Source: Dyella terrae
GTDB taxonomy: Bacteria; Pseudomonadota; Gammaproteobacteria; Xanthomonadales; Rhodanobacteraceae
DNA: 64,000 nt
Direction of reading: 5' to 3'
NCBI RefSeq assembly: GCF_022394535.1
Contig: NZ_CP089414.1
Span: 2,480,001 to 2,544,000 of the forward strand
Shown: piece by piece, positions 16,510 to 64,000 of the stretch
Position numbering within the stretch: position 1 is the stretch's first letter
How the letters are laid out: every line of letters begins with the position of its first letter
Translations under genes and position numbers: made by a program
The notes under the pieces: model-generated
Told to the model about the DNA's origin: nothing
What the model saw: only the letters and a program-made list of their open reading frames with translations
Databases searched by the model: none

Positions 16510-17164
16510 AGTCCTAGTGTCCGAGTGCGTCGTCACCAGGTCGGTGGCCACGTATCGATAATGCGATCCGATGCATCAATCCGCATCAAAATCGCGGGGC
16601 CATATACCCCGGACGGCGCCCATAGTGGCGCCATTTGCCGTTCTGCATCAGTTGCATCAAAAGAGAGGGGAGAAGCGCGCAGGCGAGGAGGGGGGACGAC
16701 CGCGCGCGCTGGGTGCAGAGGGGCCTAACTGGTCACTTCTTGACCAGCCCCGAGGCCTCGCCAGCGGGGCGCCACAGAGCTCAGCCTGCGCCCCTGCCCG
16801 CGTCGCGCATACAGCGGGCGCGCCCTGCCAGCGCAACCTGAGCGCCTTGCGCGTTCGTATTGCATACATTGCACGGACAAGCTAACGTCGCGCCGTGGCC
16901 GCCAATTCGGCCACCGGGCTTGGACTCCCGCATACAAGGCGCGTAGCGCCCATCACCGATGCCGGCGCTTTTTTGTTGCCCTCGGTACGGCGCTAAGGGG
17001 GTAGCGAAACGCGACCCCCCCTTATCCAGTTTTATGGCGGGCGACGCGCGGGAGCCTTCGGGCTCGCCGGTTCCTTGTACCGGTAGTCCAACCGCGCGTC
17101 GTCCGTCACCCCGCTTGGACTCGGGGCGGCGGATTCCATGGATTGAATACAAGGAATCACGCAC
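16510..17164. other. 655-bp non-coding stretch with GC-rich structured repeats
   Basis: No supported gene. It contains copy 1 of a repeated element (16651-16735) and several GC-rich inverted repeats around 16886-17100. Open frames here are GC-driven and lack protein-like composition. Confidence 0.5.
16651..16757 (+). repeat. Structured repeat, copy 1
   Basis: Starts with TGCATCAAAA, contains the exact 24-mer at 16686-16709 (AGGAGGGGGGACGACC then GCGCGCGC) and ends with a small hairpin TGGTCA-CTTCT-TGACCA. Copy 2 is at 17500-17606 in the same orientation. Could be a repeated non-coding RNA. Confidence 0.5.
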
Positions 17165-55035: not shown

Positions 55036-56406
55036 ATGTATCGACGGGTCGCCATCATCGGCGGCGGTGCTGCAGCGGCAGCGCTGCTGAGCGAGCTGCT
55101 GGAACGCCAGCTGCCGCAGCCGTTGCATCTGGACTGGTACACCGGTGGCGCTAGTTCGCCACGCGGTGTCGCGTATGGCACGCGGTCCGACAAGCATCTG
55201 CTGAATGTTCGTGCCGCCTCGATGAGCATGTTTGCCGCCAGGCCGCACGGGTTCCTTGATTTCGCCCAGCGCGGCGACGGCACCATCGCCGGCACGGATT
55301 TCCTGCCGCGTCGCCTCTATGGCGACTATCTGGAGGCGGAAGTCGAACGCGCGCTCGAACGCGCCCGCGCGGCCGGCCACGACGTACGCGTACTGCCGTT
55401 CGCGGTGGACGCCATCGTGCCAGAGAGCGCCGGCGTCACCGTCGTCCACGGTGAGGAAAACACACGCGTCGATGCCGCCGTGCTGGCCATCGGCTCGCTA
55501 CCTCCCCTGCCCTTGGGCGGCGTCGCCGATGCGGCTCTCGCCAGCGGCGGGTACGTCACCGAACCCTGGGGTTTCCTCGCCCAGGCCAAGCCGGATACGC
55601 GCCCGCTCAAAGTGGTGCTGATCGGATTGGGTCTGACTGCGGTCGACGTACTGCTGGAATTGTCGGCGCTATGGCCCAACGCCAGCTTCGAAGCCATTTC
55701 ACGCCACGGCCTGTTGCCGGAACCGCATCTGCACCAAGCCTCCGCGCCGGCCGATGACGGCAGCGAGCTGATCGAATCCATGCGCGAGGCGCCTTACATC
55801 CGCAACTGGATTCGCCTGCTGCGCGAATCCGTCGCACAGAGCGCCGACTGGCGCACGGTGATCGACAGCCTGCGCCCGCATACACCGTCGCTCTGGGCGA
55901 TGCTTCCCGAAGTGGAACGCTCGCGCTTCCTGCGACATGCACGCTGGGCGTGGGAACGCGTGCGCCACCGCATGCCGCCGCAAGTGATGGCATCCATGGC
56001 AGCACTCGAAGATGCCGGCCGTCTGCACCGTCGCCGTGGCCGCCTGCAGGCCGTGGACGTGGCGGGCGACAAGCTGCATCTGGACATCCGCTTGCCACAC
56101 GGCAAGGGCGTGGAGACGATGGACGCTGACCTGGTGATCCAGACGGTGGGCCTGAATACCGACGTGCGCCGCACACAGCACGCCTTGGTTCGCCAGCTAT
56201 CGACCAACGGCCATGTAACGGCCGACCCGCTGGGTCTCGGCGTGGTCGCCACTACCGAAGGCCGCGTAAAGCACGGCACGCAAACGTGGCAGCACTTCTA
56301 CGCCATCGGCACCCTACTCCGAGGCGCATTGTGGGAATCGACGGCCATGCCGGAAATCCGGCAACAGGCACGCAACCTCGCGGATCGCCTGATGAAGAGC
56401 GAGTAA
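55036..56406 (+). CDS. FAD-NAD(P)-binding oxidoreductase (NAD_binding_9)
   Basis: 456 residues. N-terminal dinucleotide motif YRRVAIIGGGAAAAALLSEL, PRGVAYGT, LNVRAASMSMFAARPHGFLD (characteristic of this family) and a second nucleotide motif VVLIGLGLTAVDVLLEL. Probably a flavin monooxygenase-like enzyme acting with the upstream CDO-type protein. Confidence 0.85.
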   Translation: MYRRVAIIGGGAAAAALLSELLERQLPQPLHLDWYTGGASSPRGVAYGTRSDKHLLNVRAASMSMFAARPHGFLDFAQRGDGTIAGTDFLPRRLYGDYLEAEVERALERARAAGHDVRVLPFAVDAIVPESAGVTVVHGEENTRVDAAVLAIGSLPPLPLGGVADAALASGGYVTEPWGFLAQAKPDTRPLKVVLIGLGLTAVDVLLELSALWPNASFEAISRHGLLPEPHLHQASAPADDGSELIESMREAPYIRNWIRLLRESVAQSADWRTVIDSLRPHTPSLWAMLPEVERSRFLRHARWAWERVRHRMPPQVMASMAALEDAGRLHRRRGRLQAVDVAGDKLHLDIRLPHGKGVETMDADLVIQTVGLNTDVRRTQHALVRQLSTNGHVTADPLGLGVVATTEGRVKHGTQTWQHFYAIGTLLRGALWESTAMPEIRQQARNLADRLMKSE

Positions 56407-56410
56407 GGAA

Positions 56411-56436
56411 AAGGGAGCGCCAGGCGCTCCCTTTTT
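56411..56436 (+). terminator. Terminator of the oxidoreductase gene
   Basis: AAGGGAGCGCC-A-GGCGCTCCCTT with a T run. Confidence 0.85.
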
Positions 56437-56539
56437 CATGTAGGCCATTCATCACCAAGCCGAACGTCGTTGCCGAGGGTTCTGTCATCGCCACCCTCTA
56501 CGTCTGCATGACTTGAAAGTTCGGGACGCCTCGGCGAAT

Positions 56540-56863
56540 TCAGCCTCCACGCAACCGTAGAACCAGATGTAACGTGGACTCTTTCTGGATGTTGTAATCA
56601 CTCACCGCCCTACCATCTTCAAGCTGCTTACCGGCGAAGATAAGTCGCTGTTGATCAGGGGGAATGCCTTCTTTGTCTTGAATCATAGCCTTGAGGTTTT
56701 CGATCGAATCGGACGGCTGGGCATCGAGGGTAATCGTCTTACCCGTGAGGGTTTTGATGAACAACTGCATCGCCATGACAGACGGCGCAAAGGTCATGAA
56801 ACCGCAGGCAAGAAAAACGAGAAGTCCCACGCTTAAACGGCTTTTTCGTGTAGAAGTGTTCAT
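56540..56863 (-). CDS. Exported ubiquitin
   Basis: 107 codons from the ATG at 56863: a 31-residue Sec signal ([20 protein letters not shown], then MA) fused directly to a 76-residue ubiquitin beginning [15 protein letters not shown] and ending [10 protein letters not shown] at the stop. About 66 of 76 positions equal eukaryotic ubiquitin, with changes such as I3L, V5I, T22S and K29M. Lys 6, 11, 27, 33, 48 and 63, the L8-I44-V70 patch and the free GlyGly are kept. Predicted to be released to the periplasm or outside. Close resemblance to eukaryotes and lack of E1/E2/E3 genes nearby suggest horizontal acquisition. Precedent: a secreted ubiquitin in Bacteroides fragilis. Confidence 0.93.
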
Positions 56864-56974
56864 GGATATTTTCCCTATGTGTTGGTGCACCTCATCGCCG
56901 ATCGATCGTGATCGGCAACGTGTGCGCATGGCGCTTAGGTCATCCGCGTATTCATTGATGGCGTGCGCGTCCAG

Positions 56975-58084
56975 CTACTGGGCTAGCGTCAGTCCGCTCG
57001 GATCGCTACCCAGCGCGCCTTGATTGGCATTACCAAAATCGCTGAGCGTTTGAACCTGGTACGTCGACGGATTCACTGTCAGCAAAGCGCCATTTCCTTC
57101 GGGCCCGCCATCCGCATCAGTTACACCAAGCAACCCCGACGACGACAACCAAGTAATGCCGTTCGGTGCGATGGCGGTTTGCGCAGTCGAGCCCGTGCCA
57201 AAATCAGTGAGCAGGGTTCGAAAACCGTTCGTTGGATTCACCTGCACCACGGCGCCACCACCGCCCGAACTCAGTTCCTGCACCAGCACATAGATGGCGC
57301 CTGACGGACTGATCGTCACGCTCATCGGCGTGGACTCAGGGTTCGTGTCGACCCAACCTTGAGCGCTGTTGCCAAAATCGCTCAATACATTGCGTGCGCC
57401 CGTGCCCGGGTCGACGGTAAACAGTTCACCTTGGCCATTCGTGCCAGCGCTGCCATCGGCCACCAGAATGGTGCTGCCCAATAATCCGAGGAGCCCAGGC
57501 CAATACACCATGCTATCGGGATAGACGCCTTGATTCGTGCCAACGCCAAAATCCGTCAGCAGCGCACGACTGCCTGAACTGCTCACCGAAAAGATTGCAC
57601 CCTGGCCATTCGTTCCGGCCATCGGATCGACCACCAGGATCTGCGCAGTCAATCCCAACAAACCCGGCACGACCAATACGCCGGATGGATCCTGCCCCAC
57701 ATCACCCTGCACGCTGTTGCCGAAATCACTAAGTTGGGCTCGATAGCCCGTCACCGGATCGACTTCGAAAAGTGCACCTTGTCCGTTCGTTCCCGCGCTG
57801 CTGTCGGTGACGATGGCCTCGGCCGAACCGAGCAGCCCAAGCAAGCCCGCTGGCATCCAACCCACGCCACTAGGATCGACACCCGTATCCCCTTGTGTGC
57901 TACTCCCGAAATCGCTGAACAACGTTCGGTTACCGCTGCTTTGATCAACGATGAATAGCGCACCTTGTTGATTGGTGCCTGCGCTTTGATCGACCGCGAG
58001 TAGATTGCCCGTGGCAATCGACGACGCAGCCGCAACACCCATGCATCCGACTGATAACGCCAAAACCATTAGCTTACGTTTCAT
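56975..58084 (-). CDS. Exported six-repeat beta-propeller-like protein
   Basis: 369 residues from the ATG at 58084. Signal peptide (LMVLALSVGCMGVAAAS). About six repeats of 50-60 residues, each with AGTNGQGALF-VDP-TG then a LSDFGN-QG segment (for example SAGTNGQGELFTVDPGTGAR). The regular pattern suggests a six-bladed propeller. No catalytic residues recognised. 111 bp upstream of the ubiquitin gene on the same strand; they may form one transcript. Confidence 0.75.
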   Translation of the reverse strand: MKRKLMVLALSVGCMGVAAASSIATGNLLAVDQSAGTNQQGALFIVDQSSGNRTLFSDFGSSTQGDTGVDPSGVGWMPAGLLGLLGSAEAIVTDSSAGTNGQGALFEVDPVTGYRAQLSDFGNSVQGDVGQDPSGVLVVPGLLGLTAQILVVDPMAGTNGQGAIFSVSSSGSRALLTDFGVGTNQGVYPDSMVYWPGLLGLLGSTILVADGSAGTNGQGELFTVDPGTGARNVLSDFGNSAQGWVDTNPESTPMSVTISPSGAIYVLVQELSSGGGGAVVQVNPTNGFRTLLTDFGTGSTAQTAIAPNGITWLSSSGLLGVTDADGGPEGNGALLTVNPSTYQVQTLSDFGNANQGALGSDPSGLTLAQ

Positions 58085-58817
58085 GATTGTCCCCCGCTTG
58101 TGGATGGGCCATACATGTGCGTTTGAATGGCACATGCGTACCTGACGAAGGCGCGGTGGCGCCTGCGTACCTCGCTTTTCAACAAGAGAAAACCACCAAC
58201 AAAACCGCCGTTACCCCAGCAGACGCCGGGCTACGGTGCCTTCCTTGCATGCCACGACGCTGCATTCCAGCATTCGCTGGAAAGATGATTTGAGCTTGCC
58301 CCAGATGTTGTTAGCGACTCTAAATCGCTCAATGCGGCCGTCATGCACAGCAAGGCGCACCGATCCATCGAATTGCCGATACCTCTTCTGCTTATCCGCG
58401 TACTACAACGCTGCAGAACGATGACTATGCCAAAGACGGTACCAACTGTCGGCACCCAGAAATGCCAGATCGCTTTCGTCGCTGAACCCGGATTTCCGGG
58501 TCGCGAAGCTAGCGCATGCACAGTTATCGCCTTGTGATCGACGCATGCATCGCCATTCACGGGCACGATGCACGCACAGCGACTGCACATAGACGTCACC
58601 ACTTCTGCTGCGCCACGCAGCAAGCGATGCTTGCCAATGGAACGGTGTTGTTGTTGCGCAAGATCGAGGGAAACAGCCATTTGCGGACGGTTGGCAAACT
58701 GCGCGACATCCCCCGCTCACACCACGAAATAGTTGGCATGAAGATGTCCTGCGTGGCCTGTTCTTTGGTGTCGCTTCTTTTTCTCGTAGGCAACGCGCCG
58801 GCGCTGGGCAGTGACAA
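58085..58817. other. Gap with a remnant of the lipoprotein repeat unit
   Basis: No gene supported. 58738-58810 resembles 60896-60960 (start of the first lipoprotein and end of the effector), as if a fourth unit had decayed. Confidence 0.45.
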
Positions 58818-59485
58818 TCACCAACTGCCATAGGGGATGCCGTGCTCTTGCACATATTGGCGCGCGGGCTCGTGCATGGGTCGATATTTCCCACCCGACT
58901 TGCCCTCGTACGGCCCCAACGGCTCCACCTCCGCCTGCCCGCGCATCACTTCCACCGCAGGCATCCCGATGCCGTTGATCCACACCACGGTGCGCCCCCC
59001 CTTGGCGCTACGCCGATGCTGATCATGTGACGGCAACTGGTTTCGGTATGGCCCTGCCACGTGATCGCTTCTTGCTTGACCAACGCCTGCCGCATGCTGT
59101 TCGGCACAGTGAATTGCCATCGGTAGGTTTGCGGCTCGGCCAGCGACTGCCAGCGCACGAACACTTCCATGGGTGCTCCCGCACTGTCGATGGAAGCGCC
59201 ACCCGTACCACCTCGGCCACTCCAGCCCTCGGTTTGTCCAAATTCCGTCGCCATGCCCTGTGGTATCTCGACGGTTCGCCCTCGGTCATCCGTCACTTGC
59301 AGTGCTTCAACCCATGCTTCCATGTAGCTAGGCGTGTAGACACCCAACGACCAATGGTGGCAATTCTGGCGTGCCTCGCGCCGGATACGCGCGTCGCTGT
59401 ACTCCTCGCTGGCACAGGCCGGCAGCAATAGCGCGCTGAGCAGTACCAGCCACAAGCATGAAGCTGCCTTATGTCGTTTGTTCAT
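58818..59485 (-). pseudogene. DUF2931-like lipoprotein, copy 3, frameshifted at a G7 tract
   Basis: Frame from ATG 59485 (lipobox LPAC after LWLVLLSALL) runs to SIGVAPRG, then shifts at seven consecutive G (58995-59001 on the plus strand as C); the original ending, RTVVWINGIGMPAVEVMRGQ to HGIPYGSW, continues in another frame to 58818. The three copies are about 80-90 percent alike by eye. Inactive in this phase unless slippage restores it. Confidence 0.8.
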
Positions 59486-59538
59486 CCGTGCCCCCCGCGT
59501 TTGGACGTCCGCGAGATGCCCGCGAGGATCGACGGGGC

Positions 59539-60205
59539 TCACCAGCTTCCATAGGGAATTCCGTGCTCTTGGATGTACTGCTTGGCCGGGCCCGATAACG
59601 GATAGGCGTATTCCTTACCCCGCCCCTGCCATGGCCCCAACGGCTCCACCTCCGCCTGCCCGCGCATCACTTCCACCGCAGGCATCCCGATGCCGTTGAT
59701 CCACACTACGGTGCGCCCTCCTGGAGCGACGCCGATGCTGATGTTCTGTCGGCAACTGGTCTCGGCACGACCCCGCCACGTAATCGCCTCTTGCTTGACC
59801 AACGCCTGCCGCACGCTGGCCGGCACAGTGAATTGCCAGCGGTAGGTTTGCGGCTCGGCCAGTGACTGCCAGCGCACGAACACTTGCATTGGTGCACCCG
59901 CGCTGTCGATCGTGGTTCCCCCCCGCGCCACCCAAACCATCCCAACCCACGGTCTGCCCCAAACTGCCAGCCATACCTTGCGGTATCACAACCGTTCGTC
60001 CCCGATCATCCGTGACTTCCAACGTTTCGACCCATGCCTCCATGAAACGGGGAGCGCCCACCATCATCGACCAATGCCGACAGTTTTGCGTTGCCTCTCG
60101 CCGGATACGCGCGTCGCTGTATTCCTCGCCGGCGCATGCCGGCAGCAATAGGGTGCCAAGCAGCATCAGCAACAGGCATGAAATAGCCTTGTGTTGCTTG
60201 CTCAT
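59539..60205 (-). pseudogene. DUF2931-like lipoprotein, copy 2, frameshifted at a G7 tract
   Basis: From ATG 60205 (lipobox LPAC) the frame goes to GGAGG and shifts at a seven-base tract, 59918-59924, where copy 1 has GGAGG; TIDSAGAPMQVFVRWQS and the end HGIPYGSW are in the other frame. One extra base in the tract explains it. Confidence 0.8.
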
Positions 60206-60257
60206 TCGTGCCCCTGCTTTTGGATGTCGGTGGGATGCCTGCGAGGGTCGACGGGGC

Positions 60258-60923
60258 TCACCAACTGCCATAGGGAATGCCGTGCTCTTCCACATACTGC
60301 TTAGCTTGGTCCGAAAAGCGTACGTAACGCCCGCCATGTTGCCCTTGGTCCGGCCCCAACGGTTCCACCTCCTCTTGCCCGCGCATCACCTCCACCGCCG
60401 GCATCCCGATGCCGTTGATCCACACTACGGTGCGCCCTCCTGGAGCGACGCCGATGCTGATGTTCTGTCGGCAACTGGTCTCGGCACGACCCCGCCACGT
60501 AATCGCCTCTTGCTTGACCAACGCCTGCCGCACGCTGGCCGGCACAGTGAATTGCCAGCGGTAGGTTTGCGGCTCAGCCAGTGACTGCCAGCGCACGAAC
60601 ACTTGCATTGGTGCACCCGCGCTGTCGATCGTGGTTCCTCCCGCGCCACCCAAACCATCCCAACCCACGGTCTGCCCCAAACTGCCAGCCATACCTTGCG
60701 GTATCACAACCGTTCGTCCCCGATCATCCGTGACTTCCAACGTTTCGACCCATGCCTCCATGAAACGGGGAGCGCCCACCATCATCGACCAATGCCGACA
60801 GTTTTGCGTCGCCTCTCGCCGGATACGCGCGTCGCTGTATTCCTCGCTGGCGCATGCAGGCAGCAACAAAGCGCTGAGCAACACCAACAGCAGGCGTGAA
60901 ATTGCCTTGTGCCACCTGTTCAT
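60258..60923 (-). CDS. DUF2931-like lipoprotein, copy 1 (intact), candidate immunity protein
   Basis: 221 residues. Lipobox LPAC (LLLVLLSALLLPAC), then ARIRREATQNCRHWSMMVG, TLEVTDDRGRTVVIPQGM, FVRWQSLAEPQTYRWQFTVP and the ending HGIPYGSW. Its ATG overlaps the stop of the effector (TAATG), so it is translated with it. DUF2931 lipoproteins are often found next to T6SS phospholipases; a role as envelope immunity is inferred. Confidence 0.85.
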   Translation of the reverse strand: MNRWHKAISRLLLVLLSALLLPACASEEYSDARIRREATQNCRHWSMMVGAPRFMEAWVETLEVTDDRGRTVVIPQGMAGSLGQTVGWDGLGGAGGTTIDSAGAPMQVFVRWQSLAEPQTYRWQFTVPASVRQALVKQEAITWRGRAETSCRQNISIGVAPGGRTVVWINGIGMPAVEVMRGQEEVEPLGPDQGQHGGRYVRFSDQAKQYVEEHGIPYGSW

Positions 60924-62935
60924 TAGTGTCCCTTCTTCTGCAAGTAAGTAAGACGATCGCGCTCATCGGCAGGACGCATAGGAAACAACACACCGAGGTC
61001 CGCGCCCCACGCTGTCGGCAATGTGGCGACCACCGTGTTCGGTTTGGTCTTGTCGTCGTAGGTCGGCGGCCAATCACCTGGGTTCCAGTTTGCCGACTGG
61101 TGCAGGTAGCGGCGGCTAAGCCACTGCTCTTCCTGGCGGATCAGCGGGATCTCGCCCTTACCGTCATTGAGCGCGTAGGCAAGCAATTTGTCCTTGATGG
61201 AAATCAGTTCATCGGGCAGCGTCAACGCCGGCACGTCATCGGGGGACTGCGCGAATGGCACCCCTGCCCGCACCGCCAACGCATGCATGATGCGCAAGGT
61301 GATCAACTGATAGTCGCCACGCACCTGCCGCAGCGCGACCAGCGCGGCGGCCACTTGCAGCTTGACCTCACTGACGGGCCCCCTGAAGGTTTGCCGGCGG
61401 CCCGCGACCACCTTGGTCCAGGTCTGGATCTTCCAGGTGTGAGAATTCGGCGGTGGATTCAGCTCCGGATCGATCAGCCAGTCCTTGTCCAGCTTGTCCG
61501 CCTCGCGAAGCTGGTCCAGGGTGCGTTTGACGGCGGTGCTCTCCGTGGCCACCTTATCGAGATAGACCTTCAGCATCTCTTTCAACTCGCGAGACGTAGC
61601 GAAGTCGTATTTCTCTTGATCCAAGTTCTCCAAGCTGATCTCCGGCCGCGTCAGTACGCTTTGTTCCCACCCGAGCATGGAATAGCCGCCACCGAGATCC
61701 GAGTGCACGCCCGGCAGGGAAATTTCGATATACCGGCTCAGCTTGACGCGATTGAGGCAGAAGTTTTCGCGGCATTCGTCCCTTGCTGTCAGGTGCACCA
61801 CCTGGTCGGCGCAATCGTCGGACAGGTGGAGTTTGACCGGGTCGTTGTTGCCGTTGTCGGGGATGCCGATGGCTGCGACGCTTTCGTACAGGCCCACGAA
61901 GCGGATACGTAGATCGCTTTTGTTGCCGCCGCTCCAACCGTCTTTGAGGGGCAGGCCCGCCTCTCGCAGTTGGCGCGCCATGACGCCTTGATCCCCGCCG
62001 TGCAGAATCAGCGAAACCACATGGCGCGATGACGCCGCGCCGCGACTGAAGCCGAACAGGTCGAACTCGATGGCGTCGATAATGATGTTGGTGTTTCCAA
62101 GGAAGAACGCCTTGATCTCCGCCACGGCCGCTTCCACGGCTTTCTCGGCACAGGCAATCACCCCGGTGGGACCAAAGCCCGTGCCAAAGGTAAAGATGCT
62201 GTCCTTGTGATCGGCCCGCGTGCCGATGCCTTCGATATAGGCGCGACGGTAGACATAGAGTCGGCCATCCTCGCCGGTTTCTGCATCGACGAGTCGGTGC
62301 GTTTCGCGGTACAGGGTGTACAGCCGATGCACATTCGTCTCACCCCCCGCATAGCTCACATCATTCATGTTGTTCTGCTTGCGGCACGCCGCCATCAATT
62401 GATCGATGATCGCGGGATGCTTGTCGAGGCCGGCAGCCTGAGGCGAGCATTTTTCGATGGCCGCCTTGCTGTTGGGGTAGTTGTTGCCGGTGCCGTCGTC
62501 GCATAGGGCAATGCGTATCACCACGTGCACCGGATCCTCGGCGGGCGGGCGAGTAACCGCGAACGCGGCGGAGGAAACGCCGGTACCGGCGGGTGGCGCT
62601 GATATCGGCGCGGTGTTGGTGGATTCACTCAGTGCCGGTGCGCTCCGTTGGTTAGTGGCGGCATCGGCTTCGTCGTCCAAGGTTTCGCGGTTTTGCGAGG
62701 CTATCAAACGCGCGCCGCAGGTGGTGCGCATGCCTTCCACTGCCGGGGCGTAGCCAAACAGCGACGGCACACCGCCCTCAATGGGGAAAATGCCGTTGCA
62801 TTGCGGGCAGAACACCATGTGTCCCTTGCCGGCCACGCGATGCCCGTTATCAAGTCGCATCAGTGCGTAACCTTCCAGCACACGACCACCATGATCGGTG
62901 GTATCGCAACAGCCAATGATGTTTTTCTCGGCCAT
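60923..62935 (-). CDS. PAAR-Tle1-like phospholipase effector (T6SS)
   Basis: 670 residues from the ATG at 62935; a TTG at 62959 is possible. N-terminal PAAR-type domain (~1-80: NIIGCCDTTDHGGRVLEGYA, CPQCNGIFPIEGGVPSL, TTCGARLIAS) that can cap a VgrG spike, then a low-complexity linker and a DUF2235 hydrolase (IALCDDGTGNN, EGIGTRADHKDSIFTFGTG, nucleophile FGFSRGAASSRHV, FVGLYESVAAIG, GVHSDLGGGY). Such Tle1 proteins hydrolyse phospholipids in rivals. Followed by three lipoprotein genes. Confidence 0.88.
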   Translation of the reverse strand: MAEKNIIGCCDTTDHGGRVLEGYALMRLDNGHRVAGKGHMVFCPQCNGIFPIEGGVPSLFGYAPAVEGMRTTCGARLIASQNRETLDDEADAATNQRSAPALSESTNTAPISAPPAGTGVSSAAFAVTRPPAEDPVHVVIRIALCDDGTGNNYPNSKAAIEKCSPQAAGLDKHPAIIDQLMAACRKQNNMNDVSYAGGETNVHRLYTLYRETHRLVDAETGEDGRLYVYRRAYIEGIGTRADHKDSIFTFGTGFGPTGVIACAEKAVEAAVAEIKAFFLGNTNIIIDAIEFDLFGFSRGAASSRHVVSLILHGGDQGVMARQLREAGLPLKDGWSGGNKSDLRIRFVGLYESVAAIGIPDNGNNDPVKLHLSDDCADQVVHLTARDECRENFCLNRVKLSRYIEISLPGVHSDLGGGYSMLGWEQSVLTRPEISLENLDQEKYDFATSRELKEMLKVYLDKVATESTAVKRTLDQLREADKLDKDWLIDPELNPPPNSHTWKIQTWTKVVAGRRQTFRGPVSEVKLQVAAALVALRQVRGDYQLITLRIMHALAVRAGVPFAQSPDDVPALTLPDELISIKDKLLAYALNDGKGEIPLIRQEEQWLSRRYLHQSANWNPGDWPPTYDDKTKPNTVVATLPTAWGADLGVLFPMRPADERDRLTYLQKKGH

Positions 62936-63352
62936 GGAATCGCTCTTCTTGATAGACAAGAAGACGATCGGCTAACGAGCATCACGTTGTCAGTGGCACA
63001 ACGCCGCTGTTTCTTGTCAGGGGACTGCACCAACCGTTAGCCCGCGCAGGCAGCGTTTGCACGTCATGCATGCATGCATGTTTACTGTGTGCTTGCTGGG
63101 CGTTGTTGTGGATGTAGTCCTTCGTGCCGTAACACCGTACAGACGCGCTGTAGGCGTTCACCTTGTTTACGTCGAGCCATCGCCCGACATGCGTTTTTTT
63201 CGGTGCTGGCGTGAGCGGGTATGTCACTCGCACCGTCTGTTCTGGTCTTTTTCGTGGCTACGCGAGTGACCACGGCAGTTGATGCCGTGACCCGCGAGGC
63301 GCCGGTGTAACGAGCACCGATGACTCGCTAACCATAACCAACTGTTGAAGAG
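62936..63352. other. Gap upstream of the effector
   Basis: No gene supported. Contains a short ATGC tandem repeat (CATGCATGCATGCATG near 63066) and probably the effector promoter. Confidence 0.45.
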
Positions 63353-63682
63353 TTGATGATGGCCAACAGCGATCATAAGACAGGGCGACGCCCGTCTTCA
63401 CCCCCGAACGGCAACCAAGCCGTTTCACCGCACGCCCTGGGTATCCCCAGCTCTGCCCCTGCGGTTATTCCCGAGTTCGATCCCGATGCCGTTGCGAGAT
63501 GGCTCATGCGGCTGCATGAGCCCCTTCAGAAACGGGACTGGGTCGTTATCCCGTGGAATGCGCGGGATCCGCAGAGTGCCCGCGTGCTCACCGGTGAAGT
63601 GAGGATGATTCTTGAGGCAGCCGTGCTCTGCCTCGGGCAAATCAACCATCGGCGAATGCGGTCGCCGACTGCCGACGCTTAA
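63353..63682 (+). CDS. Small hypothetical protein
   Basis: 109 residues, no signal or membrane segment. DPDAVARWLMRLHEPLQKRD and RVLTGEVRMILEAAVLCLGQ form plausible helices, but I recognise no family. Divergent from the effector operon. A long inverted repeat follows the stop. Confidence 0.5.
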   Translation: MMMANSDHKTGRRPSSPPNGNQAVSPHALGIPSSAPAVIPEFDPDAVARWLMRLHEPLQKRDWVVIPWNARDPQSARVLTGEVRMILEAAVLCLGQINHRRMRSPTADA

Positions 63683-63683
63683 A

Positions 63684-63760
63684 CCCCGTCCGATGATCGG
63701 CCCCGTGGCGCATCGGCTCACGCGTCGATGCGCCACACCTTCGGGCGATCACGGACGGGG
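63684..63760. repeat. Nested inverted repeats downstream of the small gene
   Basis: Outer arms CCCCGTCCG (63684-63692) and CGGACGGGG (63752-63760), inner arms GTGGCGCATCG (63705-63715) and CGATGCGCCAC (63726-63736). No U-run, so not a standard terminator. The remaining bases to 64000 hold nothing I can support. Confidence 0.6.
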
Positions 63761-64000
63761 CACACGGCATTCCCTGACACGGATCACACGCTGATCCATG
63801 GTGCTGCAAACGGAATTTGATATGGAGCGCGAGCAACGCAAGCACGAACCCCGCGGGCTCGGTGTGCTGTGAACCCACGAACCAGCGCGATCAACACGAC
63901 GGCGCCTTAGCGCGCCGCCGGTCGATGTGCCTTCTGCATGTTGTCGGTGCTATGAAAAGACCTGGCGATTCACCATCCACTCAACACGACTTTCCCAATC

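Follow-up and report, generated by a model that had tools for sequence, protein, structure and literature searches.

A ubiquitin gene with an export signal and its propeller partner in Dyella terrae: occurrence, mobility and possible function

The ubiquitin gene and its upstream partner

What could a near-copy of eukaryotic ubiquitin do outside a bacterial cell? The question is raised by a gene of Dyella terrae located in the stretch of 64,000 nucleotides analysed here (the window). The gene (56540–56863, minus strand) codes for 107 amino acids from an ATG and is defined by its open reading frame, the PF00240 profile and alignment. Its product matches the profile over residues 34–105 with 98.9 bits (cut-off 25.4), the single PF00240 match in a chromosome assembled as one contig of 5,355,565 bases (5.36 Mb). 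The first 31 residues (56771–56863, minus strand) form a predicted Sec-type signal sequence that opens with the basic stretch MNTSTRKSR, continues in a hydrophobic core and closes with SVMA directly before Met1, as judged by a hydrophobicity heuristic and an alignment of the seven members found in the bacterial family. Such a signal is fused straight onto Met1 of a standalone ubiquitin in 7/7 of these members.

The mature part (56543–56770, minus strand) comprises 76 residues ending in RGG. Residues 32–107, aligned with solved ubiquitin, are identical to the eukaryotic protein at 66/76 positions, and the ten substitutions are I3L, V5I, E16D, V17A, E18Q, T22S, V26L, K29M, T55A and L56V; the six lysines other than Lys29 and the RGG end are retained. 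By the alignment, chance is far too small to explain a near-identical match of this length. The earlier note, which had described a genuine bacterial gene bearing an export signal, Met for Lys29 and several further changes, and a GlyGly end with most lysines kept, was correct on these points. The nearest proteins come from Dyella, the earlier note having named the Xanthomonadales, and are labelled "ubiquitin family protein" in the database; the whole-protein homologue search, with 120 of its 7977 matches listed, was dominated by polyubiquitins.

Directly upstream lies the first gene of the pair (56975–58084, minus strand), encoding a putative six-bladed beta-propeller of 369 residues with a predicted export signal. 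The gap from its stop to the ubiquitin start measures 111 bp (56864–56974, minus strand), and the two genes may be co-transcribed; promoter and terminator scans gave no signal exceeding that of shuffled sequence. A propeller gene occupies the same place, on the same strand, at 7/7 family ubiquitin genes and in Jeongeupia, with gaps of 24–111 bp. Strong propeller orthologs and exported ubiquitin co-occur in the same 7/233 family genomes. More widely, the propeller was found in 6/369 genomes of the class (best foreign E 6.6e-22) and in 4/399 genomes of the order of Jeongeupia, Jeongeupia counted. Among the remaining exported-ubiquitin loci of the genome scan (80 retained as the best of 197), Jeongeupia alone yielded a propeller homologue in the flanks examined; as far as these flanks indicate, the propeller is therefore not a general partner of exported ubiquitins.

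Insertion site, phage-like contigs and occurrence across bacteria

The pair lies within an approximate insertion (56410–63965) relative to the ubiquitin-free genomes of the genus. In 18/18 of them homology to the window stops at about 56.39–56.49 kb and restarts at about 63.97–63.99 kb, and the insertion site is therefore empty in all 18; the left neighbour gene (55036–56406) is matched in 20/20 genus genomes. The contig of a second ubiquitin-bearing genome (G015) aligns with 56341–58576, a stretch containing the pair, and then passes into the right flank, lacking the stretch of about 58.6–63.9 kb, which in the window genome is occupied by the gene of a Tle1-like PAAR protein and by DUF2931 repeats. 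Flanking genes are common to G067 and G069, and the other compared flanks gave weak paralogue-type matches. Ubiquitin is rare in the phylum: PF00240 matches occur in 2/398 sampled genomes, namely the window genome itself and a second one with a weak match (26.6 bits). Among plasmid records, ubiquitin was found in three, one from Ruminococcus albus and two from Pseudoalteromonas; a propeller match was absent from plasmid records. A tree of ubiquitins, as proposed in the earlier note, was built from 104 domains and 73 columns, but 1/100 inner branches is starred, so that no donor can be named from it.

Several further features of the window and of related genomes were observed. The Tle1-like phospholipase with its PAAR motif, the DUF2931 gene downstream and two additional copies of the repeat (period about 719 bp) span 58903–62959 and may represent a T6SS effector together with immunity genes that have been amplified. 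Another part of the window (16882–17113) encodes a C4 antisense RNA with its a1/b1 targets (Rfam), features typical of P1/P4-type elements; the window may therefore contain a prophage or satellite. Two T2SS-type secretins scored above the cut-off in G000, an observation in favour of the antagonist reading set out below.

Ten ubiquitin loci and two propeller loci were located on predicted viral contigs, all of them predictions from metagenomes or genomes and none a cultured phage. Five of the ten ubiquitins have a signal start, as read from the ORFs by eye. One contig carries a propeller–ubiquitin pair with an RGG end, on the strand opposite to phage tail, tail-fibre and baseplate genes. Three near-identical signal-ubiquitin proteins bear a short tail at the C-terminus, identified as IPTL-CTERM in the single protein tested, and their contigs have terminase genes downstream (two of the three contigs tested). 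Another signal-ubiquitin protein, whose autotransporter match stays below threshold, is encoded next to phage methyltransferase, terminase and portal genes. On a further contig with P2-type tail genes (L162:2881–4608), the place of ubiquitin after the propeller is taken by a gene for a WSC-domain protein whose start resembles a signal; this pair, apparently cargo, sits between tail-completion and baseplate genes. A search of annotated phage records gave no match.

The genome scan retained the best 80 of 197 relatives, from which L021, L023 and L026 were dropped as duplicate genomes. Altogether, 94 ubiquitin ORFs were examined, 75 with and 19 without a signal (heuristic). A small-residue motif stands immediately before residue 1 in 73/75 exported ORFs; one of the two scan patterns requires Ala before Met1, and 62/79 ORFs lacking that pattern were still called exported by the heuristic. 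Fusion to further protein is the usual arrangement (58 of the 75), with autotransporter barrels in 19 and S-layer domains in 5 of the fused forms; 17 are standalone, one of them clipped by a contig end. The 65 exported loci of the genome scan (from the best 80 of 197) represent 12 named phyla and two unnamed ones. Many loci belong to metagenome bins, and among those without a signal some resemble eukaryotic sequences, such as the tandem ubiquitins of L031; isolates among the exported loci include Pedobacter cryoconitis, Saccharibacillus sacchari, Sphingomonas canadensis and Flavobacterium collinsii. The neighbours of four standalone loci (L036, L041, L096 and L088) were judged by eye alone.

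Some of these loci have arrangements of their own. Pedobacter cryoconitis (L036:7246–8648) encodes four consecutive exported ubiquitins, all without the RGG tail. In Akkermansia-type genes (L060, L061, L065 and L091) just 306 residues follow ubiquitin, about the size of one autotransporter barrel, and ubiquitin may thus be the sole folded passenger. Two other genomes of the Dyella family contain ubiquitin genes without signal and without GG (L017:5959–6219 and L018:5980–6231), which probably have a separate history.

Ubiquitin thus seems to lead a second existence beyond the bacterial cell. It is possible, if not yet probable, that many bacterial phyla use exported ubiquitin as a mobile extracellular domain, which phages and islands would carry by itself, paired with a propeller, or as part of autotransporter, S-layer or CTERM-sorted proteins; conservation of its recognition face would then reflect encounters with ubiquitin-reading eukaryotes, e.g., grazing protists and fungi.

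Possible functions of the exported ubiquitin

We tentatively favour, at somewhat less than even confidence, a cassette of two exported proteins, propeller then ubiquitin, that would have been gained horizontally and would serve as a secreted, non-covalent antagonist resembling BfUbb, the ubiquitin secreted by Bacteroides fragilis. The Sec system would export both proteins, and signal peptidase would free ubiquitin starting at Met1. Outside the producer, ubiquitin would act as a folded ligand binding its targets non-covalently; the RGG end would be optional, and conjugation would not be the conserved activity. The likeliest use is that of a released BfUbb-type protein harming competitors, with the propeller as a putative delivery, binding or stabilising partner. 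The sequences themselves establish the gene, its pairing, its insertion site and mobility, the selection acting on it and the missing tail of some relatives, whereas export, cleavage, joint transcription, antagonism and the part played by the propeller are deduced from them. The Tle1-like PAAR protein and DUF2931 genes in the same insertion of the window genome point towards antagonism. Against it, window-type proteins resemble canonical ubiquitin far more closely than BfUbb does, and bovine ubiquitin is reported to be inactive against BfUbb-sensitive B. fragilis (PMC5705921).

The ubiquitin domain is under strong purifying selection. For residues 1–73 of the seven family members dN/dS is 0.022–0.075 in the 8/21 pairs where it could be computed, synonymous sites being saturated in the other 13/21. 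For the propeller, dN/dS is 0.095–0.353 (19/21 pairs) and exceeds that of ubiquitin in 8/8 shared pairs. Among 11 distinct exported Dyella-type sequences, 18/73 positions are variable: 8/14 in the core, 0/12 in the I44 recognition face and 10/47 elsewhere, under the position lists used for core and face. The contrast between the face and the rest is modest (Fisher p=0.031 against all others and 0.10 against non-core others; 0.002 against the core). Position 29 (codon near 56684–56686, minus strand) shows six different residues among these 11 sequences, and the other six lysines are invariant. Each lysine is retained in 93–100% of 74 exported domains, a sample chosen for similarity; L092, being out of register, was excluded from these column counts, and P0003, chimeric past residue 69, was counted at positions 70–76 by observed letters only.

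These patterns bear on a second reading, which we regard as a real possibility short of a probable one, namely that the protein is a ubiquitin mimic directed at eukaryotic neighbours (protists, fungi or plants). Released or displayed, it would occupy ubiquitin-binding proteins, or enzymes, through non-covalent contacts once taken up or once a vacuole is damaged. The invariant I44 face suggests a ubiquitin-reading, hence eukaryotic, target rather than bacterial antagonism, and the strong selection and the retained lysines are consistent with this. WSC domains bind fungal wall glycans, and the replacement of ubiquitin by a WSC-domain protein after the propeller points the same way, although it is a single contig. 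No route into the eukaryotic cytosol was seen, however, the face contrast is modest as stated, and RGG is gone in 3/7 family members. Bacterial antagonism and a eukaryotic target can both hold together.

The prevalence of fused forms, with their barrels and S-layer domains, would fit the recruitment of ubiquitin as a stable beta-grasp domain that serves surface architecture or adhesion and has no ubiquitin-specific target. This reading is rather unlikely: the form in the Dyella family is standalone, and an invariant face with a variable core is the opposite of what a mere scaffold should show.

The mechanism proposed in the earlier note, in which a free GG end is charged by eukaryotic E1 and then conjugated, or blocks E1, fits the data most poorly and is very improbable. 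RGG is indeed kept in 4/7 family members, the window's included, but in G015, G067 and G087 a stop replaces Arg74, so that ubiquitin ends at residue 73. The metagenomic sequence P0216 stops likewise, while P0215, P0217, P0218 and P0219 finish in RGG. The GG at positions 75–76 is retained in 3/58 fused exported ubiquitins, and RGG in 7/16 complete standalone ones (the four of the Dyella family, Jeongeupia, Sphingomonas canadensis and a deltaproteobacterial bin). With the stop in 3/7 family members, the alignments indicate that the ubiquitin fold is conserved and the conjugation tail is not, and an optional RGG agrees with a non-covalent mode. An E2 search of the seven ubiquitin genomes was empty, the control search being equally silent. 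Nor does the B. fragilis precedent cited for the GG end carry over: BfUbb is described as lacking the two terminal glycines, with Cys as its last residue, and the activity demonstrated for it is the inhibition of other B. fragilis strains (PMC3352274, PMC5705921). Its complex with E1 reportedly arose without ATP and was absent under reducing conditions (PMC3352274).

Assembly contamination or a non-functional relic has a negligible probability, as the earlier note had already argued for contamination, given a single-contig genome with one PF00240 match and a bacterial signal, the same pair in the same 7/233 genomes with homologous flanks in a second one, the empty site in 18/18 genus genomes and dN/dS far below 1.

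If the pattern holds, a hallmark of the eukaryotic cytosol would also be a bacterial extracellular weapon or mask spread by phages and islands. The natural 73- and 76-residue forms of sister species make the importance of the GG tail directly testable, and the propeller partner could provide a handle on the mode of action of BfUbb.

Comparison with known systems

In the literature searched, which covered few subscription journals and no preprints, BfUbb stands alone as a bacterial ubiquitin that is exported and whose function has been tested, and among the results, in the longer lists the top-ranked ones, no report was recognised of a Dyella exported ubiquitin, a propeller–ubiquitin pair, or phage-borne or surface-fused bacterial ubiquitins. 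Secreted bacterial ubiquitin is thus known already; the propeller partner, the carriage on phage-like contigs and the mostly fused exported ubiquitins of 12 named phyla appear to be new.

BfUbb is reported to be secreted, to begin at Met1, to inhibit some strains of its own species and apparently to have no immunity gene (PMC5705921); synthetic mature BfUbb, without terminal glycines, inhibits sensitive strains of B. fragilis (PMC5705921). It resembles the Dyella protein, as the earlier note had also seen, in a signal ending directly before Met1 of a standalone mature ubiquitin, and further in strain-restricted occurrence and in the beta-propeller genes of the ubb region (PMC5705921, PMC3352274). 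The two differ in that BfUbb is reported to be 63% identical to human ubiquitin (PMC5705921, PMC3352274), without GG and with a Cys end, whereas the window protein matches at 66/76 positions and ends in RGG. The direct propeller–ubiquitin pair, phage carriage and surface fusions belong to the Dyella-type and other loci described here, and the accessible text on BfUbb makes no mention of them (PMC5705921, PMC3352274). The likeness is one of a possible way of working; membership among BfUbb-type antagonists is not claimed.

Antimicrobial effects of ubiquitin are also summarised in a review: full ubiquitin at 60 uM reportedly inhibited some bacteria and a fungus, and a GG-less oyster ubiquitin was reported to be bacteriostatic (PMC10892293). 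The oyster protein is likewise extracellular, GG-less and active on bacteria, but it is an animal protein without a bacterial gene and an export signal of its own (PMC10892293). The secreted ubiquitin of Globodera rostochiensis similarly has a signal ahead of ubiquitin and acts on another organism, yet it is the product of a eukaryotic gene, carries a 12-residue C-terminal extension and has a plant target, as described in PMC5705921. The propeller may be compared with YWTD/NHL-type propellers such as those of nidogen and LRP6, but its sequence had no match among solved structures, and a common fold proves no function.
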